A stretch of DNA of 23,063 nt from a virus. Both the position numbers and the translations under genes were made by a program. Location: IMG/VR virus record IMGVR_UViG_3300025632_000087, positions 1 through 23,063 of that record. One strand, 5' to 3'. Every line of letters begins with the position of its first letter. Position 1 is the first letter of the stretch. The notes beneath the pieces were generated by a model. That model had not been told where the DNA came from and searched no databases. It saw only the letters and a list, made by a program, of their open reading frames with translations. Below are positions 1 through 15,336 of this stretch, in pieces.

Positions 1-46
1 TACCTTTTATTCCTCTACGGGAGGTTACCGATTAGTAGGCAAATGC

Positions 47-277
47 CTATAATATCTTCCATGCCTTATCTTTTATCTCGCCTGTTTGTGCGATAGATTC
101 AAGATTAGACATAATCTCGTTAATGGATCGTATGCGTTGGTATGCGTACTCTCTTAGTTGTAGCTCTTCATCGCCAGAGTATTGGATTATTTGCAGCTGT
201 GTATCTTTCATTTCTTTCATTACATCTAAAAACTCTTGGCTTGAAAGAACGTTTTTAATTGCATCTATTCTTGTCAT
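47..277 (-). CDS. Hypothetical 76-aa protein downstream of portal
   Basis: I do not recognise this small, probably helical, charged protein. It has no cysteine cluster, signal peptide or membrane segment. Its ATG overlaps the TGA stop of the portal gene (ATGA at 274-277), so it is probably translated by coupling with portal and belongs to the late structural operon. By position (directly after portal) it could be a scaffold-type or head-assembly accessory protein, but nothing in the sequence proves this. Its stop codon lies in a short palindrome (arms TAGGCA and TGCCTA, 36-49) that lacks a U-tract and so is not a convincing terminator. Confidence 0.8.
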   Translation of the reverse strand: MTRIDAIKNVLSSQEFLDVMKEMKDTQLQIIQYSGDEELQLREYAYQRIRSINEIMSNLESIAQTGEIKDKAWKIL

Positions 278-2448
278 GCACGTCTCATGTTAACGTCGTT
301 AATTTTAGACACGGCATCCATAATAGCTTTAGTTTTGTTAATGTCTTGTGTGCTGTTCTGATCTTGTGCTTTAAGCGAAAGCTCTAACTCTTGCATAGCA
401 AACTTTTTAGTTAGCTCAATCTCTTTCATCTGCAACTCTAATGCTTCTTTCTGAGCCTTAAGCTCCATTTGCTCTCTATCGAGCTGAAGTTTTGCTGCAT
501 CTGTTTGTGCTTTCATTTGAGACTTTTGTATCTCAGATTTAGCTATTGCTTCAGCAGCTTGCACTTGAGGGTCAGGTTGACCTTGTGACGCCTGTTGTGC
601 CATTTGTTGAGATTGCTCTGCAGTAATATCCATGAGAAACTGTGAATCATCTTTAAATCCAGCCATGTGAATAAACTTAGCTAAAGTGTCTCGGTATTGT
701 TTAAGGTTTACTAATGGATTACCAAGCCCATACTGTTGAATGACTTGCTCTTGTTTAGCAAGGATCATTTGCATAGTAGCTAACTGCTCTTGTTTACTAC
801 CTGTACCAAGACCTACATTAACTGTAATGTTATATTGATCATCCCACTCTCTTGGATCAAACGGTATATATTTGTTATTAACCCTGATAATTCTTTCTTT
901 TTGCTGATACTTACACACTAACTGTAAGATACCTTTAAATAACGATGAAATACCTGTGTCAGCAAATATACGTGAGATAAGTTCTAATTTACCACCAGAC
1001 GCATTTGACATAGCAGCAACTGCAGTAGCAGTTACGTTCTGTAGTATATCTGGGTTAAGACCTTGTTGAGTATCAGACACTCCAGTACGCTTCGCTTGAA
1101 CACTATCTAAGTATTCCAACATAGGGAACGACTGGTTAGCGTTAGATGTTACTTGCATAGGTACTAAAGCATTTGGATTCTTAATCCTAACAACTCCGCC
1201 TGCTGTAGATGTTAATAGATCATCTAAGTTTACTTGACCTTCTACCGCACCAACTCTGTAGTTATTAGTCAGGTAAAGATTGTCTAACATCTGCCTTGTT
1301 ACTGTTGACTTTATTAGCTGTAAGTCCATTGTTCTATCAGCTAATGACTGACCAAAGAACTTATGTGGTATTGGTATTGGGCATAGTGAGTGGAATGGTA
1401 TATAGTCACATGATTCATTAGATAGTATCTCGTTAGAAGCGTAACATATTCTTCTTAACTCAGCAATACCGTCGTTATTTTGATCTGTTGTGATATAGCA
1501 CTCAAAGTACTCAACTAACTGCATTGACGGGTCAATACTGTTTTGGTCTGTTGGTAATTCACCTCTTGAGTACCTGGCTAATCTTTCAGGACTAAACTCT
1601 AAAGCATCACCTGTTGCTAATGACATAACGATGTCTTCGTCGTAACCCATAGCAATTAACTCTGATCTTGTTACCATACGTCTTTGAGCTACAAAGTTAG
1701 CACCTTCGATTGTTCTAGCTCTCTTAGATATTAAGAACTCTTCTGGTGGTACGTTTTCAACAACAACTCTACCTACATTGGTAGACTTTCTAATAGTTAC
1801 GTTATGCGTGATAACTGATTCTTCAGGACCTTCCATTTCTTGGCCAGTCATTGGGTCTACAATAGCAGGACCTGGAAAAATAACCTCTTCTGTTTCTTGC
1901 TCTACAATTTCAACCTCATCATCTTGCAGCAACATTGTTAATTCGTCGTTACTTAAACCGTAGTACTCTTGCTCATTAACGTCTACATCATCATTCCAAT
2001 ATGACTTAACAATGCCTACCTTTTGAAGCAATGCATCTTTCATCCAATCATGGAGTATCTCAAAACCGTTATTGTCTTTGTAAAATATATGGTTAACGTA
2101 CCTTGTAGCTTGCTCAGCTAGCTCTTCATCTCCGTTGTTAACTGGCTCAAACACAACAGCCTCATTTCCTGAGGTAAAAACACGCATTATCTGCGGGAGT
2201 GCGCCGTCTATAGCCTCTGCAACCTCGCCAGTAACTATCTGTGATTTTCCAGGCACCTCGTTACCATATGGCTGACGCAAATAGTACTCTAGAGCCTTCT
2301 GTCTGTCGTCAGTTGTCTCTGTCTCTAAAAACCCAATAGAATCATCTATCTCAGACTCTAGAATAGCTTTTAATCTACCGGTATCCATACCAGCATTATC
2401 ATCTATATCTTTTGAGCTTTCTTTTTCGTCTTTTTCGTTATATTCCAT
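274..2448 (-). CDS. Phage portal protein
   Basis: This is the dodecameric ring protein at the capsid vertex through which DNA is packaged and ejected. Recognition rests on length (724 aa), the position directly after terminase, and the podovirus-type portal layout: an N-terminal region with a YYLRQPYGNE segment, a GFEILHDWMKDALLQKVG-type segment at roughly 130-150, and a long C-terminal helical tail rich in Q, K and E (about the last 130 residues) that looks like a coiled-coil barrel extension. I start at the ATG at 2448, which has AGGA 6 nt upstream. The frame stays open to a TTG at 2478, but that codon has no ribosome site. The stop overlaps the next gene (ATGA). The family call is strong; which podovirus subgroup is not resolved. 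Confidence 0.93.
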   Translation of the reverse strand: MEYNEKDEKESSKDIDDNAGMDTGRLKAILESEIDDSIGFLETETTDDRQKALEYYLRQPYGNEVPGKSQIVTGEVAEAIDGALPQIMRVFTSGNEAVVFEPVNNGDEELAEQATRYVNHIFYKDNNGFEILHDWMKDALLQKVGIVKSYWNDDVDVNEQEYYGLSNDELTMLLQDDEVEIVEQETEEVIFPGPAIVDPMTGQEMEGPEESVITHNVTIRKSTNVGRVVVENVPPEEFLISKRARTIEGANFVAQRRMVTRSELIAMGYDEDIVMSLATGDALEFSPERLARYSRGELPTDQNSIDPSMQLVEYFECYITTDQNNDGIAELRRICYASNEILSNESCDYIPFHSLCPIPIPHKFFGQSLADRTMDLQLIKSTVTRQMLDNLYLTNNYRVGAVEGQVNLDDLLTSTAGGVVRIKNPNALVPMQVTSNANQSFPMLEYLDSVQAKRTGVSDTQQGLNPDILQNVTATAVAAMSNASGGKLELISRIFADTGISSLFKGILQLVCKYQQKERIIRVNNKYIPFDPREWDDQYNITVNVGLGTGSKQEQLATMQMILAKQEQVIQQYGLGNPLVNLKQYRDTLAKFIHMAGFKDDSQFLMDITAEQSQQMAQQASQGQPDPQVQAAEAIAKSEIQKSQMKAQTDAAKLQLDREQMELKAQKEALELQMKEIELTKKFAMQELELSLKAQDQNSTQDINKTKAIMDAVSKINDVNMRRA

Positions 2449-2455
2449 ATTATTC

Positions 2456-2524
2456 CTATGATCGGTAAGTTGTTTCAAACCACACTCTTAACTCTTCTAG
2501 CTTATTCTTCAAAGTACTCTCCAT
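2456..2524 (-). CDS. Possible 22-aa micro-ORF before portal
   Basis: This is a tiny helical ORF beginning MESTLKNKLEELR. It has AAGGA about 7 nt before its ATG, overlaps the end of the upstream 51-aa ORF by 23 nt, and ends with a TAG that falls in the ribosome site of portal (ATAGGA). That arrangement would let ribosomes pass from the 51-aa ORF to portal. It may be only a coupling leader rather than a functional peptide. Short length makes chance occurrence quite possible. Confidence 0.3.
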   Translation of the reverse strand: MESTLKNKLEELRVWFETTYRS

Positions 2525-2657
2525 GCTGTATCCTTACCGGTCCAATGTTAATTAAAAAGTAACTTGCTACTATTTCTGTGCCATCGTCTAACAATAAGTC
2601 ATCTTCATAAGCTTCAAATCCTAGTCCAAATCCCCAATAAAAATAGATACTCCACAT
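2502..2657 (-). CDS. Small acidic aromatic protein, 51 aa
   Basis: This unrecognised 51-residue ORF lies between large terminase and portal. The first 14 residues are aromatic and glycine-rich (MWSIYFYWGFGLGF), followed by an acidic stretch and a hydrophobic segment around ASYFLINIGPV. It has AAAGGA about 8 nt before the ATG. It fills most of an otherwise empty 300-base gap between terL and portal, which supports it being real. It could be a small head or membrane-associated protein; no function can be assigned. Confidence 0.6.
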   Translation of the reverse strand: MWSIYFYWGFGLGFEAYEDDLLLDDGTEIVASYFLINIGPVRIQHGEYFEE

Positions 2658-2782
2658 AATTGAGTCCTTTTATAGCAAATTGTTTGCGTTTTTAAGTTGT
2701 TGATTTTAAAGGGGTTTTTTTATGGTAAAACATGCTTAAACGCGCTCTAAGACTCTCTAGCGTTTTTGGCCATGTTAGCCTA

Positions 2783-4072
2783 TTACGTGTACTGTTCTTT
2801 GTAAGAACTGGTTAAAGGTTGACTCCAGTCAGACTTAACAGACAGTGTGTCCATACCTACAGCTAAGTACCTAAAGGCGTCTGCTGCGTGTGATGACCAG
2901 TCGTGTAATGGTTTTTCTACATATACGTTTAGCTTATCGTTAAACTGTCTTCTATAGTTTCTTAAGCATTCTAGTCCATACTTAGTAGTATCTTCATTAA
3001 AGAAAGTATTTGGCAGCATTCGTCTCACTGCCTGTATACCGTCTTCTACAGGTAGTTTTGGTGCAATTGTTATTTCAAGCCCTGCTGATTCTAACAATTC
3101 TTGCCTAGATTTACCCGTCCCTAACTCTCTTACCACAACGTCATGCGGCAATATATGTTCGTAACCTTCGTAACCGTTATCTTTTATCCAACCAACGTAA
3201 TCATCAAGTGATTTGCCGTGGTCTTCGTAGTAATCTAAAATTCTCACTTCACCACCTATTGTTTGTACTACCCATATTGAGGTAGAATCAGACATACCAA
3301 GATCCCATGCTGTATAACACTTGCATAGCTCATCGTGTGGTATGCTTCGTATGTGGTTTTCTTTATCTATGTTAGCAATAATCTCACCATAATAAGAACC
3401 AACTATAGGTGAGTCAAATGAACATTCAAATTCTTGCTCGTACTTACTATCTCCCATTTCTTGTTTAGCCGCAAGTAATTCATTAGCATCTAGTAAGTTT
3501 GTTTGTGACGCTTTAAATTCAAGCAACTTCCACTCTTTCTGCTTGCCGGAGTCAGCACGATCTCTAAGCTCTTTAAAATGGTTGGCTCCTTTAGGCGTTC
3601 CAATAAATAAAGCGTAGCCAATACGATCGGCCAAAGCGGGTCGTACAACTTCCGTAAAAAGAGTAGGAGATACGTCCCCAATTTCGTCGATGACAATTCC
3701 GTCCAGGTATATACCTCGAAGTGAGTCAGGATTATCAGCGCCATAGAGATTAATACGCCTACCCATGAAATCAACACGAAGCTCCGCAACATTAGCAACC
3801 CCTCCTAAAGGTCTTGTGTACTCTAACAAATATTCCCACGCTATACGTTTAGCCTGAGAGTAAGTTGGAGCAACATAAGCAAATCTTGGATTTTTTTTAT
3901 CACATTTAAGTGCAGAATGTATTAGTTGGTTAATAGCTGATACGGTTTTTCCCATCCTACGATGTGCTACAACAACGTTAAAACGGTTATTTTTTACTGA
4001 TTGGTGTATTAGTTTTTGTGGCTCTCTTGGTCTGTACCCTGTGTCTAGTACATTTTCTAGTTCATCACTCAT
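2783..4072 (-). CDS. terL: Terminase large subunit
   Basis: This is the DNA packaging motor ATPase and headful/cos nuclease. The N-terminal ATPase has a Walker A-like AHRRMGKT (about residues 36-43), a Walker B region LDGIVIDEIGD (about 124-134) and a coupling segment at FIGTPKGANHF. The C-terminal RNase H-like nuclease starts at TAWDLGMSDSTSIW, where the Asp is the first metal ligand, and ends with HAADAFRYLAVG carrying the last acidic residues. Its length of 429 aa is normal. The start overlaps the end of the small terminase gene by 8 nt, so the two are co-translated. The terminase holoenzyme docks on the portal encoded just downstream. Confidence 0.96.
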   Translation of the reverse strand: MSDELENVLDTGYRPREPQKLIHQSVKNNRFNVVVAHRRMGKTVSAINQLIHSALKCDKKNPRFAYVAPTYSQAKRIAWEYLLEYTRPLGGVANVAELRVDFMGRRINLYGADNPDSLRGIYLDGIVIDEIGDVSPTLFTEVVRPALADRIGYALFIGTPKGANHFKELRDRADSGKQKEWKLLEFKASQTNLLDANELLAAKQEMGDSKYEQEFECSFDSPIVGSYYGEIIANIDKENHIRSIPHDELCKCYTAWDLGMSDSTSIWVVQTIGGEVRILDYYEDHGKSLDDYVGWIKDNGYEGYEHILPHDVVVRELGTGKSRQELLESAGLEITIAPKLPVEDGIQAVRRMLPNTFFNEDTTKYGLECLRNYRRQFNDKLNVYVEKPLHDWSSHAADAFRYLAVGMDTLSVKSDWSQPLTSSYKEQYT

Positions 4073-4346
4073 CTATACCTGTAACGATTTTAATGGTAAT
4101 CGGATTGTCTGAGTCACCTGACACGACATTTTCTTGCATTGATTTGCCATCTAATCTATCCCCTAGTTCTTTAATAGCGCTAATGTCACCTTCTGCAGCC
4201 TTCTCGTACAATGACTCTGCTACTTTGTGTAATTTTGCGTAATCATCTTGCACCGCTAACTTACGTACAATTTTTCCCCATATTCTTTTATCTCTAGTAG
4301 AGTTCTTGTTACCAAGAGGCGCTCCAACTTTTTTATTTTCTTCCAT
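4065..4346 (-). CDS. terS: Terminase small subunit (probable)
   Basis: This 93-aa protein begins MEENKKVGAPLGNKNSTRDK, a start common to small terminase-type phage proteins. A helical region follows, containing AAEGDISAIKELGDRLDGK, typical of such proteins next to terL. The role would be recognising the packaging site and recruiting TerL. The gene overlaps terL by 8 nt. AGGA lies 7 nt before the ATG, and the predicted three-way-junction element (4364-4421) ends only 17 nt before the ATG, so translation of terS may depend on that structure. The assignment rests on context and family resemblance, since the sequence itself has few diagnostic residues. Confidence 0.8.
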   Translation of the reverse strand: MEENKKVGAPLGNKNSTRDKRIWGKIVRKLAVQDDYAKLHKVAESLYEKAAEGDISAIKELGDRLDGKSMQENVVSGDSDNPITIKIVTGIDE

Positions 4347-4363
4347 GATGTATCCTATTAAGT

Positions 4364-4421
4364 GGGTGAGAGGAGCGAGCTCCTCTAAATCGCTACGGTA
4401 GGAGAAACCAAAGCGTCACCC
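4364..4421 (-). ncRNA. Predicted three-way-junction structured RNA before terS
   Basis: Read on the minus strand, 58 nt fold by eye into a closed three-way junction. P1 pairs GGGTG (4421-4417) with CACCC (4368-4364). P2 pairs CGCTTTGGT (4415-4407) with ACCGTAGCG (4399-4391), giving 7 Watson-Crick pairs, one T-G pair and one T-T mismatch, with loop TTCTCCT. P3 pairs AGAGGAG (4386-4380) with CTCCTCT (4375-4369) across loop CTCG and abuts P1. Single-stranded links are just A and ATTT. The P2 loop can pair with AGGAG in P3 or AGGA in the terS ribosome site. There is no U-tract, so it is not an intrinsic terminator. It starts 8 nt after the pqqA stop. It could be a cis-regulatory RNA, an mRNA processing/stability element, or a packaging (pac/cos) DNA element. 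Confidence 0.55.
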
Positions 4422-4429
4422 GAATGAAA

Positions 4430-4501
4430 TTACTTATTCATTACATACATTGTAACTTCAAAGCCAAATCTCATTTCTGTTGCTTGAGGTTTTGTCCACA
4501 T
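4430..4501 (-). CDS. pqqA: PqqA-like PQQ precursor peptide, 23 aa
   Basis: PqqA is the ribosomal peptide from which pyrroloquinoline quinone is made: PqqE (with PqqD) cross-links its Glu and Tyr, which become the cofactor skeleton. The 23-residue product begins MWTKPQATEMR and contains GFEVTMY. It keeps W2, K4, P5, R11, G13, E15, V16, T17, Y19 and N22 at the same positions as the 23-aa Klebsiella-type PqqA as I recall it; Glu15 and Tyr19 are the cross-linked pair. AAGGA lies 9 nt upstream of the ATG. No pqqB, C, D or E occurs in the window, so it would depend on host enzymes. It lies between DUF3310 and terS, at the border of the DNA-metabolism and packaging modules. Confidence 0.9.
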   Translation of the reverse strand: MWTKPQATEMRFGFEVTMYVMNK

Positions 4502-4555
4502 AGTAGTATTCCTTATAATATGTTACTGAAATACAAATATCGTAAGGGAAGTTTC

Positions 4556-4880: not shown

Positions 4881-6746
4881 TTATTGTATCTCACAGCTAT
4901 TACCTGTGCAGGCAAGCGTTTGAGCACTCGTTGTGTTATCATCTTCTTCTAAAAACTCTGTAAAATCAATGTGTTGCGGAGTTTTAGACTTTAACTCTTC
5001 GTAAGTTGCTTCGTCGCAGTCTTGGTACGGAGCTTGAACATAAGAATGGTCAGAGTGAGGTAAGAAACTAATACCGCTAATCTCATCAAAGTACTTATAA
5101 ACCCAAGCGCCAACATCCATCCATTCATGGTCTTTAACAGATATGGTTACTGAAGGCTTATGTTCACACCAATGTCGTTGGTACACTAACCAATTTTCAA
5201 GCTGCTCTAATGCCGTCATGTCATTTCTTGTTATGGCATCTTTAGGAGCTTTCATTGGAAAACTAAAAACAGCGGTAGACTCAGGTCTAAATTGCTCGTC
5301 TTCTACTTGGACGCCTTTATCTTTGAGAAAGCTGTACAAAGGGTCTTTTTTGTCAATGCGTATAGTTCTGACATAATAATCATTATGCCTAGCATGGATC
5401 CCACTAGCAGAATTAACGAGCTGGCTAACAGTTCCACTAGGCTTGACACAAGTAATCGCGGCTGATACTGGTATCTCCAAGATTTTAGCGTATTTTTCAT
5501 TTGTGTTACGTGCGGCATATCTTAACTCCTCTAAAAATTTAGGATCAGGACTTGATGTTATCTTAGCGTCCATGATACCAGTTAATGAAACACCAAGCAA
5601 TCTTTCTTCGGCTGTATTTTTTAACCACTCTTGTGATAAAAATTTAAAGTCTATCAAAGTTGATTGAAATGTTCCTAATATTGTAGCAAGTTCTACTTTT
5701 CTTTTTAACGTTTGTTTTGTATCGCCATTTCTTACAACAACCTCTGTCAAGTTACAAAATTGTTTGTCACGTAATATAATTTCTGAGCATGGGTTAGTTC
5801 CATAGTTTAGACTTTTATCACGTCGACCCCATTTAGCAGCTTGGTCTTGACTTGCTACCCTATTAAATATCCCACGCTCACCTGACTTAGATTTAACTAA
5901 AGATAACCACTCTTCCATGTAAACCTCAATATCAGGTTTTTCAGTGTAAGCTACAGAATTGTTAGCCAAGCCTCTCCAAGCAAAATCGTTGTACCATGCG
6001 CCCATTTTTGCCTCACGCATACGCTTATCAGTTAAGTTAGATAAAGATATTAACGCAGACCTTCTTACGCCGCCAACAACAACAATCTCACCTATCATAC
6101 ACATAATGTCGTGTACTTCAAGTGATGTTAATTTTCGACCTTTTGCACCAATAAAGAGATCGGTAACAAATTTAAATAACCTTTTTAATGGTTCTGGCCC
6201 AGATGCTCTACCACCAAATATTTTTAGTCTTGCACCAGCTGGCCTGATATGTGAGTAATCTATACTTGGTATATCACCATCCCAAAGTGATGACATTAGT
6301 TTTTTAAATGCTTTTGCCCAACCAAGTTTACTATCACCAACGACTATAATGTCGTCACAATTTTCAATATCTTCTGGCACTGGAGGTAATTGACTTACCT
6401 CTTGTCTTTCACAACTAAAACCCACTCCAGTTCCGTTCATTAGTATATACAATGCTTCTGAAAAAGCTCTTTTGTTATTTACGGCTAAGTAACTGCAGTT
6501 GTACGCAGCAATATTATCACGCTCACATGCCTCGCCAGCAGACATCATAAGTCTCATGGATGGCATTACCTCTAAGTTCAAAATAGCTTTGTGCAGCTCT
6601 TGTATGTCCTTTTGTAGTTTTGGCTGCGTTTTAGCTATAAAACCTGTTAGTCGAGTTACTGTTTCTTCCCATGTTTCTCTGCGTTTAAGCTCTGGTAAGT
6701 ATCTAGCGTACCTACTACTAGCAATTATCTCTTGATATAGTTCCAT
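4881..6746 (-). CDS. nrdJ: Class II (cobalamin-dependent) ribonucleotide reductase
   Basis: This 621-aa enzyme reduces ribonucleotides to deoxyribonucleotides using adenosylcobalamin and resembles the monomeric triphosphate reductase of Lactobacillus. Visible landmarks: Cys84 in AAYNCSYLAV, the active-site loop NPCSEI with Asn318, Cys320 (thiyl radical) and Glu322, Cys331 in QFCNLTE (disulfide partner of Cys84), the KPSGTVSQL phosphate loop, and the C-terminal CTGNSC pair (Cys613/Cys618) that shuttles electrons from thioredoxin. It is about 120 aa shorter than the 739-aa bacterial enzyme, with losses spread over three intervals between landmarks. GGAG lies 4-5 nt before the ATG. It supplies dNTPs for replication and needs host or environmental B12. 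Confidence 0.93.
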   Translation of the reverse strand: MELYQEIIASSRYARYLPELKRRETWEETVTRLTGFIAKTQPKLQKDIQELHKAILNLEVMPSMRLMMSAGEACERDNIAAYNCSYLAVNNKRAFSEALYILMNGTGVGFSCERQEVSQLPPVPEDIENCDDIIVVGDSKLGWAKAFKKLMSSLWDGDIPSIDYSHIRPAGARLKIFGGRASGPEPLKRLFKFVTDLFIGAKGRKLTSLEVHDIMCMIGEIVVVGGVRRSALISLSNLTDKRMREAKMGAWYNDFAWRGLANNSVAYTEKPDIEVYMEEWLSLVKSKSGERGIFNRVASQDQAAKWGRRDKSLNYGTNPCSEIILRDKQFCNLTEVVVRNGDTKQTLKRKVELATILGTFQSTLIDFKFLSQEWLKNTAEERLLGVSLTGIMDAKITSSPDPKFLEELRYAARNTNEKYAKILEIPVSAAITCVKPSGTVSQLVNSASGIHARHNDYYVRTIRIDKKDPLYSFLKDKGVQVEDEQFRPESTAVFSFPMKAPKDAITRNDMTALEQLENWLVYQRHWCEHKPSVTISVKDHEWMDVGAWVYKYFDEISGISFLPHSDHSYVQAPYQDCDEATYEELKSKTPQHIDFTEFLEEDDNTTSAQTLACTGNSCEIQ

Positions 6747-6755
6747 AATTCTCCT

Positions 6756-7076
6756 TTAAGATACATCTGTTATAAATGATTTCCACCTGTTATCAACTTT
6801 TTTCCAACCTTCTACAAGCAATGTCCAGTTAGCTGTTCTTAGGTGAGGCGTGGACTCAGCGGAAGCAATTTTGTTAATCCTAGCATTCATGTTATCCTTT
6901 GTTGTTACTTGTATAGCAACTGTATCACCTTCTTTTGTAATTGCTAGTATATCAAAGCACCACAAATCTTGTCTTATTTTAGCCCAAGCATTCCACTTTT
7001 CAACAACTTGAACCAATGCATACTCGTCACTTTCTTTAAGTCTTTTTAATGTTCTTTGTGTCGGTGATATTGCCAT
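6756..7076 (-). CDS. PD-(D/E)XK-like phage nuclease (putative)
   Basis: This 106-aa protein has the pattern seen in small phage Holliday-junction-resolvase or VRR-type nuclease-like proteins: an N-terminal SPTQRTLKRLKE helix, VVEKWNAWAKIRQDLWCFDILAI carrying the Asp, then DTVAIQVTTKDN, where a Gln/Thr pair stands at the E-x-K position. I therefore infer a nuclease fold, but the catalytic set is degenerate and activity is uncertain. The ATG at 7076 has AAGGAG 7 nt upstream, preferable to a TTG one codon earlier. It overlaps the preceding gene by 41 nt and precedes the reductase by 9 nt. Confidence 0.6.
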   Translation of the reverse strand: MAISPTQRTLKRLKESDEYALVQVVEKWNAWAKIRQDLWCFDILAITKEGDTVAIQVTTKDNMNARINKIASAESTPHLRTANWTLLVEGWKKVDNRWKSFITDVS

Positions 7077-7281
7077 CAATTTTCTCCTTTATTGATCTAT
7101 CATGATCTTCCTTTACCATTTCATCTCGCCAAGCAACTTTTTCTACATGATGTTTAACAACGGCTCCGTTTTGTTCAAATTGAGTCGAATTAGGTTTTGA
7201 CCCAAAAATACGCTCCCAATTCTCTACAAGCTTTTTGTCTGTTACTAATCCTATTGGTCTTCTTCCACTACCTTTTCCCAT
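7036..7281 (-). CDS. Conserved-type phage protein MGKGSGRRP (81 aa)
   Basis: The start MGKGSGRRP and the downstream NWERIFG segment recall a small phage protein family of unknown function found among replication genes. I choose the ATG at 7281, with AAAGGAG 6 nt upstream, over an in-frame ATG ten codons earlier. The protein is basic at its N-terminus and charged at its C-terminus, and could bind nucleic acid. It overlaps the preceding gene by 14 nt and the following nuclease-like gene by 41 nt. Confidence 0.78.
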   Translation of the reverse strand: MGKGSGRRPIGLVTDKKLVENWERIFGSKPNSTQFEQNGAVVKHHVEKVAWRDEMVKEDHDRSIKEKIDGNITDTKNIKKT

Positions 7282-7522
7282 CACAGCTCCTTTGTATTTT
7301 GCATGCGTCAATAATATATTTATGTTTAAAGTCTTCAGGTAAATTTATGTTTTCTTTGTGTAAACATCGTGTTTCTTTTGGTGTTTCAGGTATATGGTTT
7401 TTTATGTACTCATGAGCTTCAACGCACGATTTAAATGTACCAACGTAATGCTCTGCAAGACAACAACTATTATTACCTGACTCATTACCTATTGCCACCA
7501 TCAATATAAATTCAGCCATCAT
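7268..7522 (-). CDS. Hypothetical cysteine-containing protein, 84 aa
   Basis: I do not recognise this protein. It has six cysteines (a CC pair near residue 20, then singles in KSCVEAHEYI, TRCLHKE, DACKIQ and RSCDG), which is many for a phage cytoplasmic protein and might reflect metal binding or disulfides. The first of two adjacent ATGs has AGGAG 6 nt upstream. The N-terminus is mildly hydrophobic (AEFILMVAIGN), but too short and uncharged to call a signal peptide. It sits in the operon after the exported protein gene. Confidence 0.7.
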   Translation of the reverse strand: MMAEFILMVAIGNESGNNSCCLAEHYVGTFKSCVEAHEYIKNHIPETPKETRCLHKENINLPEDFKHKYIIDACKIQRSCDGKR

Positions 7523-7531
7523 AACTTGCTC

Positions 7532-7777
7532 CTAGTAACTAATAATTCCTAATGGTGTTGTTTCAATAACAGTAAGTTCATTACCATATACAAATGTTTT
7601 ACCTGTGTCGCTAGGTACTATCTCTAATCCTTGTGAACCGTTTTGATCTACAATTACCATAACTTCTTGTGCGTTGTCTACGATAGTCAATTGACCGTCA
7701 TTGGGACTGTAATAATTTACCGATTCAGCTAACGCTATTGGTATATAAAACAACATAATTAACAATACTTTACTCAT
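7532..7777 (-). CDS. Small exported protein with signal peptide
   Basis: The product begins MSKVLLIMLFYIPIALA, a textbook Sec signal peptide with likely cleavage after ALA before ESVNYY, leaving about 64 residues of beta-rich polar protein in the periplasm. GGAGG lies 5 nt before the ATG at 7777; two ATGs upstream are too close to or inside the ribosome site. No catalytic motif is visible. An exported protein among recombination and nucleotide genes is out of place; superinfection exclusion or envelope modification during infection is possible but unproven. Confidence 0.7.
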   Translation of the reverse strand: MSKVLLIMLFYIPIALAESVNYYSPNDGQLTIVDNAQEVMVIVDQNGSQGLEIVPSDTGKTFVYGNELTVIETTPLGIISY

Positions 7778-8066
7778 CATAACCTCCAATTTTATTTAAA
7801 AACCATTGCTGCAAACTTCTTTGCGTGCCATATTTTTCCTCCCAAGTTTGCTTACCAATGTGGTGTAAGCCTTCTTTGCCTTGGTGGTGATAGTGACATA
7901 GCGGCAATATATTATAGTGATCAGACCTAATTCCAATACCAGTGCGATCTCTGATGTGGTGGATGCATGCTGGAGGTAAGTCCTCGACTTCATGGACCTT
8001 TCGACAGACCACGCATCCAAACTCAGCGGCTTTACCAAGCCATATCTTTTCTTTTTTAGATGCCAT
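7770..8066 (-). CDS. Ref-like RecA-dependent HNH nuclease
   Basis: This resembles the catalytic domain of phage P1 Ref, an HNH-type nuclease that cuts DNA in RecA-bound D-loops and stimulates recombination. It shows CVVC (Cys18, Cys21), CIHHIRDRTG, then HYNILPLCHYHHQGKEG followed by HHIGKQTWEEKYG, the characteristic histidine-rich zinc and metal core. At 98 aa it lacks the long basic N-terminal extension of P1 Ref (186 aa). It overlaps NinB by 11 nt upstream and the exported-protein gene downstream. It fits with the phage annealing and exonuclease genes further upstream. Confidence 0.87.
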   Translation of the reverse strand: MASKKEKIWLGKAAEFGCVVCRKVHEVEDLPPACIHHIRDRTGIGIRSDHYNILPLCHYHHQGKEGLHHIGKQTWEEKYGTQRSLQQWFLNKIGGYDE

Positions 8067-8421
8067 GTAGACCTTTAAAACCTAAGCCATCAGCAAAGCT
8101 AGTTATTTGCTTTATATAATCATTAAACTCTTTAACGGTTAACTTTGATGTTGACGGCACAACAGTAACCTCTTCGTCCATAACCTCTATCTTGTGACTT
8201 AAATACTTGTACGCTAATAATCCGTGCATTTCTTCAGATGTATACCCAAGGTAATTACCAATCTCTGTAATCAAATCCCAATATAGTTTGTTTTGAGCTG
8301 TACTTCTATTACTTTTTTCTTTTATATTAACATAATACTCTTTGTTGTTATCAAGACTCATGCTACCAATCAGCGATATCAGGCTCTGCCTGCTGCTTTT
8401 GTTTAACTTGAATTCTGTCAT
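8056..8421 (-). CDS. ninB: NinB-like recombination protein
   Basis: NinB (lambda Orf) is a recombination mediator that binds ssDNA and loads recombination functions in place of RecFOR. This 121-aa protein shows the family layout: RSTAQNKLYWDLITEIGNYLG in the middle (lambda-type counterpart SLDQNRKLW) and STSKLTVKEFNDYIKQI near the C-terminus. AAGGGG lies about 5 nt before the ATG. The first 59 nt overlap the end of the upstream 53-aa ORF in another frame. It is adjacent to Ref, as expected in a recombination cluster. Confidence 0.82.
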   Translation of the reverse strand: MTEFKLNKSSRQSLISLIGSMSLDNNKEYYVNIKEKSNRSTAQNKLYWDLITEIGNYLGYTSEEMHGLLAYKYLSHKIEVMDEEVTVVPSTSKLTVKEFNDYIKQITSFADGLGFKGLHGI

Positions 8422-8524
8422 CGTATCCCCTTGACTTAAATACTTGCCCCGTAGATGATGTTGCTTTATACTCTACATCACCAAATAAATCTTTTATTTC
8501 TTTTAAAAGTTCGTTTACTGTCAT
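8363..8524 (-). CDS. Overlapped small protein, 53 aa
   Basis: This ORF starts at an ATG overlapping the helicase stop (ATGA at 8521-8524) and runs 59 nt into the NinB gene in a different frame. The product begins MTVNELLKEIKDLFGDVEY, has a central GQVFKSRGYDDR and ends in PDIADW. No known domain is recognised. Without it there would be an unusual 99-nt gap in a tightly packed operon, and the stop/start coupling is the same kind used throughout the window, so I think it is real. Confidence 0.6.
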   Translation of the reverse strand: MTVNELLKEIKDLFGDVEYKATSSTGQVFKSRGYDDRIQVKQKQQAEPDIADW

Positions 8525-9420
8525 CGCGGTCTCTCCAAATACCTAAATGTTTTAGGGCAAAAGTAAAAACCCCAGTAAGTTTCAGCGCCATTGCCATGCC
8601 TTTGTTTATTTAGATAAACAGTACAATCAGGGTGATTTTTCCAATCATCTGGATCTTCACCCATCATAAGCGCTTTCTCTTTCTTTTTGTTTCTGTGAAC
8701 TGAGATAGAATTGTCAGCTAAGTTTGTAATGTTTGCAGAGCCAGCAACGTCAAATTTTGATGGACTACCATCTTCATCAGCTGTTTTTCTGCTGTGTGCA
8801 ACTAAAAATATATGTACCTGTAAGTCTCTAGCGGCAACAGCCAGTTTGTTTGCAAAATTCTTTTGGCCATTAAGATCGTCTTCATTAATTCCGCATTTCA
8901 TTAGTGAGTCTATAACAAACATCTTAACATTTAATTTTTCTGCCGCATAGTATAACACTTCCAACACCTTGCTAACCGAAGTTTCGCCAGCAGCATCATA
9001 AAGGTATAGTTTATGCTCAATCTTAGATATAAAGTCATCTATGTAAGCCTTGGTTGGGTCAGGGTTGTTTGTTTGCATACACATTCTACCTAACGTTGCC
9101 TTTGGCAGCATCTCAAAAGAAGCTATAAGAGTCTTATGATTTTTCAACACGTGCAGCATAACATAACTAAGCCAAGCTGTTTTACCATGACCTGAATACC
9201 CACTTACTATAGTAAGTTCGCCTAAGCGTATCCTAAAATCATCTTTAGTTTTGTCAAATGGTAGCTCAATACCACCTTTAACATCATCGCTAAAGTACGA
9301 CATTATTTCTTCTTGATACTCGGATGGTGATTTAATCTTTAAGTGCTCACCATTATCTCTTGTTGACATATAACCACTAACTTCTTTTTCGGTTATAACA
9401 ACGTTATTTTGCGTAGCCAT
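8521..9420 (-). CDS. DnaB/Twinkle-type replicative helicase, ATPase domain
   Basis: This RecA-fold hexameric helicase has Walker A GYSGHGKT (residues 74-81), FEMLPKATLGRM with the catalytic-Glu-type position, Walker B MFVIDSL (Asp171), and VAHSRK (His209) as the sensor histidine. The C-terminal LNKQRHGNG segment matches the arginine-containing nucleotide-sensing loop. At 299 aa it has only the C-terminal ATPase domain plus a ~60-aa leader, without the DnaB N-terminal primase-binding domain. AAGGAG precedes the ATG and its start overlaps the primase-like gene by 17 nt, so the pair likely form the phage priming and unwinding unit. Confidence 0.92.
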   Translation of the reverse strand: MATQNNVVITEKEVSGYMSTRDNGEHLKIKSPSEYQEEIMSYFSDDVKGGIELPFDKTKDDFRIRLGELTIVSGYSGHGKTAWLSYVMLHVLKNHKTLIASFEMLPKATLGRMCMQTNNPDPTKAYIDDFISKIEHKLYLYDAAGETSVSKVLEVLYYAAEKLNVKMFVIDSLMKCGINEDDLNGQKNFANKLAVAARDLQVHIFLVAHSRKTADEDGSPSKFDVAGSANITNLADNSISVHRNKKKEKALMMGEDPDDWKNHPDCTVYLNKQRHGNGAETYWGFYFCPKTFRYLERPR

Positions 9421-9811
9421 ATGCTCTCCTTATATTAGCAACGGCAGTTAATAATCTTTTGTGGTCTTCATCTGATAGTGCTTTTCCTTTTTTAATGTCA
9501 GAAGAACTTAAACCAACTATCAAAACTTCGTCTTGTAACATTTTTAATATTGAGTATGGGTTAAAGCCAAGCTTAGGAGCATACTTATCAGGCTCCTTGC
9601 TTGGCATAATATCTTTCCAATTTAACCCGCTTGCGTCTAATATACTTTTAATACTGCAGCCAGCAAAGCAGTTCATTAGTATTCTGTCTCCATCGGAAGT
9701 TATACCTAATGAGTTAGACTTGTCTTTATGCGCTGGACATTTACAGCTATACTGGTTTGATCCAGTTTTTTTTACTCCATCAAAATGGTTAATGATTTCT
9801 TCTAAGTACAT
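9404..9811 (-). CDS. Primase-type zinc-binding protein, no TOPRIM
   Basis: The N-terminal half carries a zinc domain like phage DNA primases: SCKCPAHKDKSNSLGI with Cys23, Cys25 and His28, then ILMNCFAGCS with Cys48 and Cys52, and SILDASGLNW after it. The C-terminal half is helical (SILKMLQDEVLIVGL ... AVANIRRAYGYAK). No TOPRIM catalytic region is present; at 135 aa there is no room for it. It may act with the helicase to recognise priming sites, with catalysis supplied by the host primase, or be a partial primase. It starts within the TAATG overlap with the small zinc protein upstream. Confidence 0.8.
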   Translation of the reverse strand: MYLEEIINHFDGVKKTGSNQYSCKCPAHKDKSNSLGITSDGDRILMNCFAGCSIKSILDASGLNWKDIMPSKEPDKYAPKLGFNPYSILKMLQDEVLIVGLSSSDIKKGKALSDEDHKRLLTAVANIRRAYGYAK

Positions 9812-9969
9812 TATAGTTTGTCCTCTGGTATAGCGTGAATGGTTTTTCTTTTTTTACAAGCGCCGTATGCAGTTATATAATCAATGCCGCAATACCACTT
9901 GCCAGTAAAAACTTTTGCTTCACGCTTACACCCAACACAAACTCTTTTTTTCCTTAAATCGACAATCAT
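9811..9969 (-). CDS. Small zinc-ribbon-like protein, 52 aa
   Basis: This short ORF has AGGAG 6 nt before its ATG and ends in a TAATG overlap with the primase-like gene. The product is basic and has four cysteines spaced like a zinc ribbon: CVGC (Cys11, Cys14), Cys27 in WYCGI and Cys38 in YGACKKRK. It is a plausible nucleic-acid-binding partner for the adjacent primase-type protein. It is the first gene after the duplicated leader element (9975-10031). Confidence 0.72.
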   Translation of the reverse strand: MIVDLRKKRVCVGCKREAKVFTGKWYCGIDYITAYGACKKRKTIHAIPEDKL

Positions 9970-9974
9970 AAGTA

Positions 9975-10031
9975 ACTCCTAAGTTATTAACCGCTGTACT
10001 TATTAATATGTTTTGATCTAAGTTATTGATT
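9975..10031 (-). repeat. Duplicated operon leader, copy 2
   Basis: About 57 bp, roughly 84% identical by eye to 11251-11306 (one gap). Both copies share GTTTTGATCTAA and ATTGATT blocks on the plus strand and end at the AGGAG ribosome site. This copy contains two direct TTATTAA words 16 bp apart (9984 and 10000). It stands immediately before the zinc-protein/primase/helicase operon. A shared promoter, operator or leader RNA is the likely meaning; I could not place a good -35/-10 pair. Confidence 0.7.
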
Positions 10032-10036
10032 ATTAA

Positions 10037-10282
10037 CTAGAAAGGTATATCTTCTGCTACTTGCTCGACAGTGGCCTGACTTTGAGACGGCAGCGGATCA
10101 GATACTTGGCCACTTAAATACTTGGTACCAGTTTTAGACTCGCGCATCCATGCAGCCATTCTCATCTCCTTACCATTTTCAAGCGTTACAGTTCCTGTGT
10201 AATCAGGTCTGTTTTCATTTCCTTGCTTGTCGTTGTTTTTAAACAAAGCAAATCTGTTTGTGTTGTCATATTGTTCAGCCAT
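10037..10282 (-). CDS. SSB-like small protein (DUF736-like)
   Basis: This 81-aa protein begins MAEQYDNTNRFALFKNNDKQ, has a core RPDYTGTVTLENGKEMRMAA with an OB-like beta pattern, and ends in VAEDIPF. An acidic tail ending in DIPF is the hallmark by which bacterial SSB proteins bind partner enzymes. It resembles DUF736-type proteins seen in mobile elements and phages. It likely coats ssDNA made by the neighbouring YqaJ exonuclease, whose gene it overlaps by 8 nt. The N-terminus is shorter than a full SSB OB fold, so DNA binding is inferred. Confidence 0.7.
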   Translation of the reverse strand: MAEQYDNTNRFALFKNNDKQGNENRPDYTGTVTLENGKEMRMAAWMRESKTGTKYLSGQVSDPLPSQSQATVEQVAEDIPF

Positions 10283-10892
10283 TTATATTCTCCAATTTAA
10301 TTATTAAATCTTCTATCTCTATATTAAACTGCCTTGCGGCAGCTTCCATTTCTGAGATCATTTTATCATCTCTAGCTACCTCAACTATTTTTAGTTGAAA
10401 TCTTTCGGGATAATTTGGGTTGTAGCTACAAAAATAAGCCTTTTTAGAACCAGTGCAAGCAATCTGCCATTGAACTTGATGCTTGTAGTTGCTTGGCATA
10501 TTATCAGCTAGCAAGTTGTTAAAATGTGTTGTTGGTGTTGGGCACTTTATTTCTAACACAGCGTCCTCTGATTTAATCATACCATCAGGTGATGCACCAG
10601 ACATTGCTATGCTAGGGTGATCAATAAAGCCTACTTCATTAACATCGAACCCAGACTTAGCAATAAACAACTGTCTTGCTATTGGCTCTCGCTCTATACC
10701 ATCACGCATAAACTGATTAATAAAAACTTCATTAGCAACCTTACCAGTTAAGCGCTCTATTGCCAACTCATGTCTATACTTAGTTTTATACGTACTCTCA
10801 CTTGCTCTTGTTACTTTCATCATATTGCTAAAGCCTGATGCTGTAATTTTACCTAACCTTGCCGCATGCCACTCTGGAGTTCCTTGGTCCAT
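10275..10892 (-). CDS. YqaJ-type lambda-like exonuclease
   Basis: This 5'-3' dsDNA exonuclease of phage recombination systems has the N-terminal GTPEWHAARLGKITASG motif, the catalytic core SGASPDGMI (Asp103) followed by VLEIKCPTP (Glu114, Lys116) giving D-(x)n-ExK, and YKHQVQWQIACTG near residue 155, all typical of the YqaJ family. At 205 aa it has the usual length. It follows the annealing-protein gene by only 2 nt, the classic exonuclease/annealase pairing that processes ends for single-strand annealing. Confidence 0.93.
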   Translation of the reverse strand: MDQGTPEWHAARLGKITASGFSNMMKVTRASESTYKTKYRHELAIERLTGKVANEVFINQFMRDGIEREPIARQLFIAKSGFDVNEVGFIDHPSIAMSGASPDGMIKSEDAVLEIKCPTPTTHFNNLLADNMPSNYKHQVQWQIACTGSKKAYFCSYNPNYPERFQLKIVEVARDDKMISEMEAAARQFNIEIEDLIIKLENING

Positions 10893-10894
10893 AA

Positions 10895-11245
10895 TTATAA
10901 CTCCATGTCTTTTTGTTGTAGCTTAGCATTAGCAACTTCTTCATACGAGGCCATAGAAGTGTCTATGCCTATACCAAATATTCCAAGCGCTCTTCCGATT
11001 GCACTTGTCTCACAGTTCTCTATGTAACTTGTTTTGTTAATGAAGCTTGATCCGTTTTTTTCGTACGCGTGACCTGTTGCTAATAGCTGCCCATCATGTA
11101 TTACCTGAGCCTTCATAATAACAACATCGTTTTCGTTAGAAACAATTTCAGTTAAAATGCTTCCAGTTGGATATTTTTTTCTAAACTCTATAACACGTTG
11201 ATTTACGGTAATGTAGTCTTTACCTTGTATCTGAATCTTTTCCAT
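10895..11245 (-). CDS. Probable single-strand annealing protein
   Basis: This 116-aa protein contains ATGHAYEKNGSSFINKTSYI, then ENCETSAIGRALGIFGIG and a final SYEEVANAKLQQ. The ENCETSAIGRAL stretch is typical of a group of short phage annealing proteins related to the Rad52/Sak type. Its partner, a YqaJ exonuclease, lies 2 nt downstream, which strongly supports the role. It would anneal complementary ssDNA during recombination or concatemer formation. GGAG precedes the ATG, and the duplicated leader (11251-11306) lies immediately upstream. The exact annealase family is uncertain. Confidence 0.7.
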   Translation of the reverse strand: MEKIQIQGKDYITVNQRVIEFRKKYPTGSILTEIVSNENDVVIMKAQVIHDGQLLATGHAYEKNGSSFINKTSYIENCETSAIGRALGIFGIGIDTSMASYEEVANAKLQQKDMEL

Positions 11246-11250
11246 ACGTT

Positions 11251-11306
11251 GCTCCTAGTTATTAACTGTTGTATCTATTAATACGTTTTGATCTAAACTA
11301 TTGATT
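11251..11306 (-). repeat. Duplicated operon leader, copy 1
   Basis: Partner of 9975-10031 (about 84% identity by eye over 57 columns). This copy overlaps the last codons and stop (11298-11300) of the thymidylate-synthase-like gene and runs to the ribosome site of the annealing-protein gene. It thus sits at the same place relative to its operon as the other copy. It is a probable promoter/leader module. Confidence 0.7.
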
Positions 11307-11999
11307 TTGCTTAAGTAAATTAAAGTGCCGCTGATAAACATGCATGCTGCCAACGTTCCAGTATATATTACCTATCTCAAGTTCGTCATCAAAGGTAACG
11401 TCGTCCCAATATCTTCTTTCGTTTAATGTATCAAGCATACGCTTTTGAACATGTAGCTGCCACGCATAGTCATTGTTATACCCAAAAACCGCATCGTTCG
11501 ATCGCATGTTAACAACAACTTCTAGTTGGCCATTTCTTATAAAGTACTGCACGTTGTTTGTACAAATAAAATCATTCATACCTTGCTGATTAAATTCATA
11601 CTGCATTTGAGGTCTAGTATAAATCATTATAGCTCTTCTTGAGTAAGGATCATTGACAAGTTGGTTTACACATGATTCGAACTGATCACAATTTTCCTCA
11701 CTATCCACAAGAAAACCATAGTTACTATTAATATAACCGTTTCCAGATGCAACCTGCTGCCATATGCTTGGAACATCACCAGGTATATCGTTTACATTTA
11801 ATGATTGACTTTTGTACCACTCAAGCTCTCTAGCTATATATTCCTCGCTTGGCTCTCTTAGAATAAATGGTTTGTCAGCCAAAAACGTTGCGTTAATAAT
11901 CTCAACTGTTGTAAAACCAGACTTATCAACCACAAAATCTTCGTTAAAATGTTTTTCTTTAAAGGCCAATGCAATTGATTCAGTTGTTAATGTATTCAT
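11298..11999 (-). CDS. Thymidylate-synthase-fold enzyme, Asp at the dUMP-selecting site
   Basis: This enzyme would transfer a one-carbon unit from methylenetetrahydrofolate to C5 of a deoxypyrimidine monophosphate. It shows PYSRRAIMIYTRPQ (phosphate arginines), catalytic Cys146 in ICTNNVQYFIRNGQL, RSNDAVFGYNND and the ribose-binding SMHVYQRHF. Aligned by eye to E. coli ThyA (RSCD...FN177), the Asn that selects uracil is replaced by Asp177. In the family this Asn-to-Asp change marks dCMP hydroxymethylases such as T4 gp42. It could therefore make 5-hydroxymethyl-dCMP, though a divergent thymidylate synthase cannot be excluded. Its ATG overlaps the Nmad1-like gene's stop (11996-11999). Confidence 0.85.
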   Translation of the reverse strand: MNTLTTESIALAFKEKHFNEDFVVDKSGFTTVEIINATFLADKPFILREPSEEYIARELEWYKSQSLNVNDIPGDVPSIWQQVASGNGYINSNYGFLVDSEENCDQFESCVNQLVNDPYSRRAIMIYTRPQMQYEFNQQGMNDFICTNNVQYFIRNGQLEVVVNMRSNDAVFGYNNDYAWQLHVQKRMLDTLNERRYWDDVTFDDELEIGNIYWNVGSMHVYQRHFNLLKQNQ

Positions 12000-12322
12000 T
12001 TTTGTCTCTTTGGTTTGTTAAAGATATCAAGCTCTGTGTTTTGTCCGTCCATTTTTCCACGCAAATAAGAAACTGCAAACGAAGCGTAGTTTATAATGTC
12101 CATGTACGTATCTTCTAAAGACTCAAAGTTTGGCTTGCTATTTGACTCTAGTAGAGATTGGGCCCTAATAACCTTACCAGCAATTACGTCGTGTATTGTA
12201 TCAATGCCACGCCTGTAATGATCTGCCTGCTTTATACTAGATCCATAACTTTGGTAATCACTACCTTTTTTAATTTGTAAATCAGCTGCTTCGTATAGCA
12301 CTTTGATAGAATGTCTACTCAT
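11996..12322 (-). CDS. DUF1599 / Nmad1-like protein
   Basis: This 108-aa, mostly helical protein has QIKKGSDYQSYG, YRRGIDTIHDVIAGKVIRAQ and LEDTYMDIINYASFAVSYLRG, matching the DUF1599 family, later named nucleotide-modification-associated domain 1 (from memory). The family has been linked by gene neighbourhood to modified DNA bases, but the reaction is not established. It is coupled on both sides: one-base TAATG overlap with the MazG-like gene upstream and ATGA overlap with the TS-fold gene downstream. This tight trio supports a shared role in pyrimidine nucleotide modification or pool control. Confidence 0.72.
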   Translation of the reverse strand: MSRHSIKVLYEAADLQIKKGSDYQSYGSSIKQADHYRRGIDTIHDVIAGKVIRAQSLLESNSKPNFESLEDTYMDIINYASFAVSYLRGKMDGQNTELDIFNKPKRQK

Positions 12323-12702
12323 TATTCAGCTCCTAATACGCTAGCAAAATCTGGCGCAATAAAGTTTGCAGGTTTTTTAACTCCAAGTTTATGACCTTCT
12401 GTTTCTAAACTTAACTCTTTAGACATGTTAGCAGCATGAACTTTGTCCCAACACTCGTTCCATTGGTCTTCATTTAAACCTAGCATGTTAGCTGTTCCAA
12501 GTGCTATATACACAACATCAATTAAAGCATCAACACAGCCATGTATGTCAGACATGTTGTTCGAGTATTGGAATTCGTTTACCTCCTCAATCATGTGCGC
12601 GTACCTAGACTTCATAACATCATCTGGTAGTAATGCTATGCCAGAAGATTTTTTAATCTTTAGTTTTTTTAAAAATTTGTCTGTATCTGTAAAGTTACTC
12701 AT
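12322..12702 (-). CDS. MazG-like nucleotide pyrophosphohydrolase
   Basis: This all-alpha NTP pyrophosphatase-type protein (126 aa) carries HMIEEVNEF (Glu39, Glu40, Glu43) and, 14 residues on, DALIDVVYIALG (Asp58, Asp62), the metal-binding EExxE and DxxxD helices, then CWDKVHAANMSK. It would cleave a (deoxy)nucleoside triphosphate to the monophosphate. With a TS-fold enzyme acting on a dNMP two genes downstream, one attractive idea is that it supplies the dNMP substrate (for example dCMP from dCTP). GGAGA lies before the ATG. Confidence 0.82.
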   Translation of the reverse strand: MSNFTDTDKFLKKLKIKKSSGIALLPDDVMKSRYAHMIEEVNEFQYSNNMSDIHGCVDALIDVVYIALGTANMLGLNEDQWNECWDKVHAANMSKELSLETEGHKLGVKKPANFIAPDFASVLGAE

Positions 12703-12711
12703 TACTTTCTC

Positions 12712-13383
12712 CTATTTTATAAAAGATGTTTCTCTTGCATATTTATCAGCATTTGACTCTACCTTAAAGCCTACGTCTAGTCCGTCTTTTAGTAGTGTAA
12801 CGAACGACTTTGCATACTTCATGTCAGATACCGATTCAAAATATTTCTTTAACCAAACATTAACTTCTGTTTTAATTTCTTCTAAATTATTGTCTTTCCA
12901 AACTTTGTAACCAGCATGTTGATAACCTTTGTTGCTGTATTCTGGTAGACCATCAAATACTTCTACAAAACCTTTTAAATACCTTTTAATCCCTCTAGCA
13001 GATCTTACAACAGCGTAATCTTCTGTTGACTTTTTTGCTGCAGATGCTTTTCCACCTTTGCTACTATTGTTTTGTTTTGAATGATACATGTCTATAGTTT
13101 TTTGTATTCGCCGCTGAAAGTAATTACCTTCATTGTCTAACTCAAAAAAATCATGTAATACTAACTGTACATCTTCTAATGAAGTTCCAAACTTTCTACT
13201 GTAATATTTTAATTCATTACAACGAATACTTTCTCCAGATCTATAACATTCACAAATTAATCTAAAGTACGTATAAGTTTGTAGTGGTGTTAGATAAGAT
13301 GAGTCTGCAAAGAAATCATTCATTACAAAGTTAAAGTAGTGCATACCTTTTTCTTTTTTATATTTCTCCATTCTGTCTGACAC
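12712..13383 (-). CDS. DUF1376/YdaU-like replication protein
   Basis: The N-terminal ~90 residues (GMHYFNFVMNDFFADSSYLT, then TYTYFRLICECYRSGE and LHDFFELDNEGNYFQ) match the winged-helix DUF1376/YdaU domain of phage replication-initiation proteins. A lysine/serine linker follows, containing KQNNSSKGGKASAAKKS, then a helical C-terminal part (VFDGLPEYSNKGYQHAGYKVW). By analogy with lambda O-type proteins it may bind the origin, and the iteron-like repeats at 13566-13621 lie about 180 nt upstream. The start is a GTG at 13383 with GGAGAG 4-5 nt before it; an ATG four codons later is possible. Confidence 0.72.
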   Translation of the reverse strand: MSDRMEKYKKEKGMHYFNFVMNDFFADSSYLTPLQTYTYFRLICECYRSGESIRCNELKYYSRKFGTSLEDVQLVLHDFFELDNEGNYFQRRIQKTIDMYHSKQNNSSKGGKASAAKKSTEDYAVVRSARGIKRYLKGFVEVFDGLPEYSNKGYQHAGYKVWKDNNLEEIKTEVNVWLKKYFESVSDMKYAKSFVTLLKDGLDVGFKVESNADKYARETSFIK

Positions 13384-13516
13384 AATACTCTCCTATTATT
13401 TATTTTTAATTCTTAGTTCTTAGTTCTTAATTCGTTGAAGTGAATTTAGATTCACTGCTAGCACTGAAAATAACTTGCCTTTCATATACATATACGTTTT
13501 AGTGTAAGTAACTGAA

Positions 13517-13553
13517 ATACAAGGGTAAAGTTTTTACACAATACCCTTTGTAT
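13517..13553. repeat. Inverted repeat with 11-bp arms
   Basis: ATACAAGGGTA (13517-13527) pairs with TACCCTTTGTAT (13542-13553), leaving one bulged base and a 14-nt loop. There is no adjacent U-tract on either strand, so an operator or leader hairpin is more likely than a terminator. Confidence 0.5.
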
Positions 13554-13565
13554 TTAAATAGTCGC

Positions 13566-13621
13566 TGCACAAATTTTGCACAAATTGTGCACAAATTTAT
13601 AGCAAACTTGCACAAAATTTA
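13566..13621. repeat. Helically phased iteron-like repeats
   Basis: TGCACAAATT-type words start at 13566, 13577, 13588 and 13609 (the last is TGCACAAAATT), with a degenerate copy at about 13599. Spacing is 11, 11 and 21 bp, close to one or two helical turns, so the sites face the same side of the DNA. This is the usual arrangement of initiator-binding iterons or of cooperative operators. A TTATACAAT word follows at 13619. Confidence 0.6.
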
Positions 13622-13673
13622 TACAATATTGCCAAAAAAACACACACAAAAAACAGTCTAGTATATGGCATAA

Positions 13674-14045: not shown

Positions 14046-14055
14046 AGTATTTCTC

Positions 14056-14157: not shown

Positions 14158-14168
14158 TTTAATAGCTC

Positions 14169-14741: not shown

Positions 14742-14764
14742 TATATATCTCCTTGTTGTTTTTA

Positions 14765-14788: not shown

Positions 14789-14846
14789 GAACCATTATCT
14801 CGTGTAATTATAAAAAAGTACAGTGTTTTATTAATTTATTTTAATG

Positions 14847-15312: not shown

Positions 15313-15336
15313 GCCACCCCTACAAAGGAGATACAC

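Follow-up and report, generated by a model that had tools for sequence, protein, structure and literature searches.

A covarying RNA structure at the head of the packaging operon in relatives of marine methylotroph phages

The element and its neighbours

The window analysed here (the whole 23,063-nt stretch of viral record IMGVR_UViG_3300025632_000087, positions 1 to 23,063) carries on its minus strand a DUF3310 gene, pqqA, a short structured element, terS, terL and a portal gene, in that order (Table 1). The 93-aa product of terS gave no significant match in family searches, and the gene owes its name to its position before a clear TerL. The TerL of the window shared 65% identity with its counterpart in Methylophilales phage Venkman; from this identity and the pqqA score, the hosts of the virus are most likely OM43-type methylotrophs. 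The 23-aa pqqA was also present, not annotated as pqqA, in the OM43 phage isolates P19250A, MEP301, MEP401, MEP402, Venkman and Melnitz phages, and its pattern matched at least 120 stretches of viral contigs. In the accessible text of three papers on OM43 phages (including PMC9004378), PQQ or pyrroloquinoline was absent or appeared as a medium ingredient only.

The element begins 8 nt after the pqqA stop and ends 17 nt before the terS ATG, has a GC content of 57% compared to 37% for the window and 32-36% for its flanks, and is followed by no U-tract in the window sequence. In the predicted fold, P1 comprises 6 bp (5 plus an A-U pair) and P3 6-7 bp, with links of 0, 4-5 and 0 nt between the helices. 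The minimum free energy (MFE) of the element was -24.9 kcal/mol, while shuffled sequences averaged -14.85 (sd 2.82; z -3.56) and none of 200 was as stable. The same fold was recovered as the MFE structure in a 111-nt context (z -1.94; 10 of 200 shuffles as stable). A preliminary description of the minus strand from 4421 to 4364 had given this junction fold, its sequence and coordinates, both spacings, the GC-richness and the missing U-tract, all of which proved correct. An intrinsic terminator, in the sense of a GC-rich hairpin running directly into a U-tract, was not found at the element: P1 is followed by ACUUAAUAGG, and terminator scans did not return the element.

Table 1. Coordinates of the element, of its neighbours and of other features mentioned in the text (window positions unless a locus or genome is named)
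Feature	Position	Strand	Basis or remark
Structured RNA element P1-P2-P3	4364..4421	-	intercistronic, pqqA/terS; fold, homologues, covariation
P1, 5' strand GGGUGA	4416..4421	-	predicted fold; pairs covary
P1, 3' strand UCACCC	4364..4369	-	predicted fold; pairs covary
P2 hairpin, 4+4 bp, one U-U mismatch, 7-nt loop	4391..4415	-	fold; inner pairs covary
P2 loop UUCUCCU	4400..4406	-	invariant in both alignments (A2, A3); form B: UYYUUCUCCUG
P2-P3 link AUUUA	4386..4390	-	UUUAAA in relatives lacking P3
Optional P3 hairpin GAGGAG-CUCG-CUCCUC	4370..4385	-	fold; absent in form B
AGGA, terS Shine-Dalgarno	4353..4356	-	unpaired in predicted leader fold
pqqA, 23 aa, upstream neighbour	4430..4501	-	PF08042, 43.6 bits
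terS, first gene of packaging operon	4065..4346	-	named by position, before TerL
terL	2783..4072	-	phrog_2, E 8.3e-40
Early genes of window	4881-16439
Late genes of window	1-4346 and 16490-22860
U8 hairpin	L050 1272-1313		between element and terS
U8 hairpin	G025 about 2430-2474	-	between element and terS
HNH endonuclease-like gene abutting element	L300 2096-2510		named by eye
Pseudoknot motif	L010 about 2870-2940; L050 163-230; L445; L450
Hairpin of element-less relatives	L015-L040, L255-L297		just before terS
Hairpin of element-less relatives	L104 about 2035-2060		before terL
Other post-pqqA sequences, first type	L117, L147, L152, L154, L157, L225		structured-looking
Other post-pqqA sequences, second type	L124, L159, L174, L183, L201, L217-L219		structured-looking

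Relatives, forms and selection on the fold

Searches of the viral collection with TerS, TerL, pqqA and sequence patterns placed homologous element sites in at least 52 viral contigs (38 tabulated and 14 others: L315, L318, L323, L338, L343, L353, L365, L369, L372, L377, L381, L389, L418 and L491). Two forms were distinguished. Form A, with P1, P2 and P3, occurred in the window, L003, L004, L007, L246 and L044/L046; form B, with P1, P2 and a UUUAAA or UCUAAA link replacing P3, was represented by 17 distinct aligned sequences, plus L491. The location and the UUCUCCU loop of P2 are common to both. The three-way junction had first been taken as the essence of the element, which does not hold: P3 is absent in most relatives, and the conserved core consists of P1 and the P2 hairpin with its invariant loop. 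In L004, L007 and L246 the P3 hairpins have different sequences and all fold, and L044 has a P3 hairpin as well. A pairing of the loop with an AGGAG inside P3, also proposed at first, loses its footing among the form-A members, as only the window/L003 and L044/L046 types possess this motif.

The form-B covariance model (R1) gave one match per record in six form-B records and in G021, G023, G024 and G025; even with E up to 1 it had no match in the window, which speaks against a single family. The two forms are united by loop, topology and position, not by one covariance model. Further form-A candidates were sought with a DNA pattern, which returned 40 loci; only the L004, L007 and L246 types were real, and the remaining ones resembled reverse complements of ordinary start regions. 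The form-B pattern was found nowhere in the bacterial and archaeal genome set. Among isolate phages, the form-B query gave no useful match, and matches to the window query covered nothing beyond pqqA and the flank upstream of it. The phages with the element appear to form a single group of relatives, whose genome context is partly shared by descent.

Compensatory changes exceeded those of both shuffled and slid controls, as for a structured RNA under selection. In the alignment of the 17 form-B sequences (A2), 95.6% of the cells were paired and 45 cells were changed on both sides, with a covariation score of 0.543 compared to 0.132 after shuffling and at most 0.094 after sliding. A combined hand alignment of 23 distinct sequences from both forms, scored over P1 and the five inner P2 pairs, had 98.8% canonical cells versus 61.4% after shuffling, and 99 double-sided changes versus 24.7 (sd 4.8; maximum 40 in 2000 shuffles). 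The refuting condition named in the preliminary description, a lack of compensatory changes, did not arise, and the RNA interpretation came through this check strongly. Shuffling ignores relatedness among the sequences, and the slid control is helpful as an additional safeguard.

Wobble pairs favour an RNA of the coding strand rather than a DNA dyad, because P1, P2 and P3 contained eight G-U cells and no A-C cell on the transcribed strand (two-sided p 0.008 under the assumption of equal strands, the alignment rows being related). This bears on a DNA packaging (pac or cos) site, which would account for the adjoining terminase genes and for the single copy per record where scanned. The arm sequences vary freely with pairing kept, the eight-to-none asymmetry speaks for one-strand RNA, and contig ends were not enriched near the element (one contig out of 38 ended at most 150 nt away, 1.43 expected; a weak test). 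A packaging site is the least probable of the explanations considered here, and the cos end imagined at first found no backing in these data.

No Rfam 15 family matched the window or 14 relative loci at the gathering threshold, nor window positions 4330-4510 and L011 2840-3020 at E up to 10. Rfam holds the packaging RNA (pRNA) of phage phi29, and its family model did not match the element either. Both are RNAs near packaging genes, and the pRNA resembles the form-A element in having a three-way junction; unlike it, the element is about 58 nt long, its P3 is optional, and the phage has a terS-sized gene together with TerL. The open-licence literature searched held no description of the element, and a large survey, reportedly of 224 candidate RNAs, may hold a prior one. 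The element represents an RNA class with strong covariation and no counterpart in Rfam, located at the packaging-operon head of marine methylophage relatives. Of the original interpretation, the novel structured RNA stood, on covariation and the lack of an Rfam match, while the junction as its essence, the loop switches and the cos end were not supported.

Position at the packaging-operon head

The gene following the element was terS in most loci, a divergent terS (5 of 5 loci of one search), or the portal gene in two phages with the gene order portal-terL-terS (L343 and L372). The same element precedes three kinds of first gene, and its association is with the start of the packaging module. 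An element belonging to the 3' end of pqqA was considered and rejected: among the matches listed, 119 of 121 pqqA sites lacked it, and so did pqqA-bearing isolates. Of these sites, which came from a degenerate scan for pqqA, those of the window and L204 alone had the hairpin, and R1, which would miss form A, matched at none of the 100 + 20 pqqA loci among the matches listed. In P19250A, MEP301, MEP401, MEP402, Venkman, ctXG6705 and Melnitz-1, pqqA was followed by other sequence. Two more conserved, structured-looking sequences were observed after pqqA in other phages, one of the type AACCCTCAAGTTC...CTTGAGGGCAGTGTAA and one beginning with GCGGTTAAGCCGACATTAGAGGATGTAGTAAGT.

In 22 of 30 loci the next start codon lay 14-23 nt from P1, among them the start codons of the portal gene (L372) and of an inserted HNH gene (L300). 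Exceptions were the divergent-terS loci L318 (82 nt), L369 (88 nt) and L323 (51 nt), and L050/L304/L306, where the next start lies at 8 nt, or at about 57 nt if the conserved terS start is taken. For L343 the script gave 96 nt, with a portal ATG about 17 nt away and its frame broken in the contig; no start codon was found after the element in L353. On the other side, the script found a previous stop in 27 loci; in 12 of them it preceded P1 by 5-14 nt, and the other loci had additional hairpins or a pseudoknot-like motif in between. HNH or methylase genes were directly upstream of the element in L338, L343, L372 and L050, and an HNH gene separated it from terS in L300. HNH endonuclease-like genes, named by eye, abut the element on either side (upstream in L338, L343 and L372).

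The pseudoknot-like motif is a second RNA-like feature of form-B phages, an H-type pseudoknot (ACAG-UCRAA-GGAC-G-CUGU-AA-GUCC) followed by GGAUGCC...GGGCU. It had no Rfam match, its arms covary by eye in 14 distinct sequences, and it precedes the element, a methylase or other genes.

One reading of the position after pqqA is a barrier in mRNA processing or stability, giving pqqA and the packaging genes different half-lives on one transcript. The element is a GC-rich, stable structure and in many loci comes right behind pqqA, 7-14 nt from the stop. Such a barrier would have no need of an invariant loop, however, and the element was kept where pqqA is not its neighbour (L050, L338) or where no pqqA motif was found (both portal-first records, G002 and G003, the last 1,275 bases of G003 lying outside the search), which makes this reading rather improbable.

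No strong intrinsic terminator was found at the element junction in the window, G001, G005, G006 and G007. The L050/L051/L304/L306/G025 group carries a 13-14 bp hairpin with U8 in the interval from the element to terS, where no promoter was found. The same stretch also reads in frame with terS as an N-terminal extension (MFNTLNWVLSIFFLGLN), and the hairpin may instead be coding. The extension resembles a small membrane-protein-like gene located between terL and portal.

The main rival to the reading favoured below is an attenuation or antitermination RNA, by which a polymerase or a factor would read the hairpin and loop so that transcription enters the packaging operon. Antitermination RNAs such as the put sites of phage HK022 and the nut sites of lambda make the polymerase ignore terminators. 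Like them, the element is a short structured RNA at a phage operon head, with conserved unpaired bases in a covarying scaffold. Unlike them, it is present as a single copy before packaging genes, has another fold and adjoins a terminator in one subgroup only; antitermination by the element is putative. Its position where early genes meet late ones in co-directional genomes, and at the start of the late operon whichever gene comes first, would fit such a role, as would the promoterless U8 hairpin; yet that hairpin is confined to the L050 group and can be read as a terS extension, and no Q- or N-like antitermination protein was recognised among the early genes of the window that were scanned. 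On balance, this explanation appears unlikely.

The conserved loop and its possible partners

The P2 loop resembles an anti-Shine-Dalgarno sequence, and a riboswitch-like cis switch had been proposed in which it would pair with the terS ribosome-binding site. The start codon is mostly 14-23 nt away, and 19 of 22 loci offered a complement of 4-5 nt. The longest complement was only 3 nt in L007, L246 and L050, and the terS site is left unpaired in the predicted MFE fold. Moreover, in the window the loop was complementary to the sites of many early genes over 6-9 nt, and its complementarity to terS, weaker than to most of these, about equalled that to late genes generally. The switch is improbable. 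In these analyses a riboswitch would look the same as a leader bound by a protein or an RNA.

The loop is the exact complement of AGGAGAA, and strikingly it is exactly complementary to early-gene Shine-Dalgarno sites in most, not all, element-bearing phages. In seven element-bearing genomes, which are related and for which no pooled p-value is given, GGAG sites preceded 115 of 165 early genes versus 26 of 155 late genes (Fisher p<0.03 in each). Genes called with a simple gene caller were classed as early or late from their position and their homology to labelled genes. In these seven phages, the Shine-Dalgarno sites of early genes were of the GGAG type and those of late genes of the AGGA(not G) type. 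No early-rich split was seen in three element-less OM43 phages (early and late, respectively: Venkman, 9/32 and 5/25; P19250A, 0/28 and 1/26; MEP301, 1/17 and 11/30), and it was weaker in eight element-less relatives (55/178 versus 32/212). Of the other genomes, G025 had GGAG in 15 of 18 early genes, G021, G022 and G023 had too few early genes for a split, and the counts omit G019 (modules unclear), G016, G018 and G020.

These counts could reflect a silencer acting in trans, with the loop of the late mRNA pairing to early AGGAGAA sites and shutting early translation as late transcripts accumulate. If true, the early-to-late switch would be made by RNA only, and the Shine-Dalgarno split across the genome would be its match. 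The split and its missing counterpart in the three OM43 phages are in line with it. By contrast, the element-bearing G024 had GGAG in only 4 of 18 early genes and AGGAGA in none, the weaker split of the element-less relatives implies that part of the signal is generic, and the genomes are related. This silencer is very improbable.

There is good support for the element being a structured leader RNA that belongs to the packaging operon. Its regulatory role is one we infer from position and conservation, and the explanation favoured, tentatively and with slightly less than even confidence, is a cis-acting leader of the packaging (late) operon, bound at its loop and setting the expression of the first packaging gene and of the genes downstream. 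The scaffold would present the loop to a factor acting in trans, either another RNA or an RNA-binding protein from phage or host, and binding of this factor would tune how strongly the packaging genes are translated or produced compared with the early genes or pqqA before them. Control would act at a junction that, in most of these phages, holds no intrinsic terminator. Against an operator within the leader stand the start codon 51-88 nt off in the divergent-terS loci (L318, L323, L369) and the U8 hairpin or terS extension intervening in L050/L304/L306; this long spacing and intervening hairpin do not suit a strict translation operator.

The translational operators of the MS2 coat protein and of phage T4 are likewise hairpins with a conserved loop near the start codon of the regulated gene. 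The element differs from them in that the hairpin does not include the start codon, which follows about 17-20 nt further downstream, in that this distance is not fixed in all relatives, and in that no binding protein is known. To our knowledge, RNA-level control at the head of DNA-packaging operons has been little explored, and early/late separation in compact lytic phages with no recognised regulators might be approached through one 58-nt element.

Structured RNAs have been described in related settings. The manA and wcaG motifs of marine phages, reported from comparative analysis in the part of the source consulted (PMC2864571), are associated with other genes, unlike the element, which had no Rfam match. 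The OM43 phage Melnitz carries a glutamine riboswitch according to the accessible part of its description (PMC9004378). What the two would share is regulation by RNA, in phages infecting one and the same group of hosts; the riboswitch is of another RNA class, at another gene, and no Rfam match was obtained in the window. Element-less relatives displayed a different hairpin directly before the first packaging gene, covarying by eye, with a GGAG ribosome-binding site inside it (examples: GTAATGACCCAGTAATGGAGTTAC, GGTGACCAACCTATAAGGAGTCAC and GGCAACCAACCTATTAGGAGTTGC).
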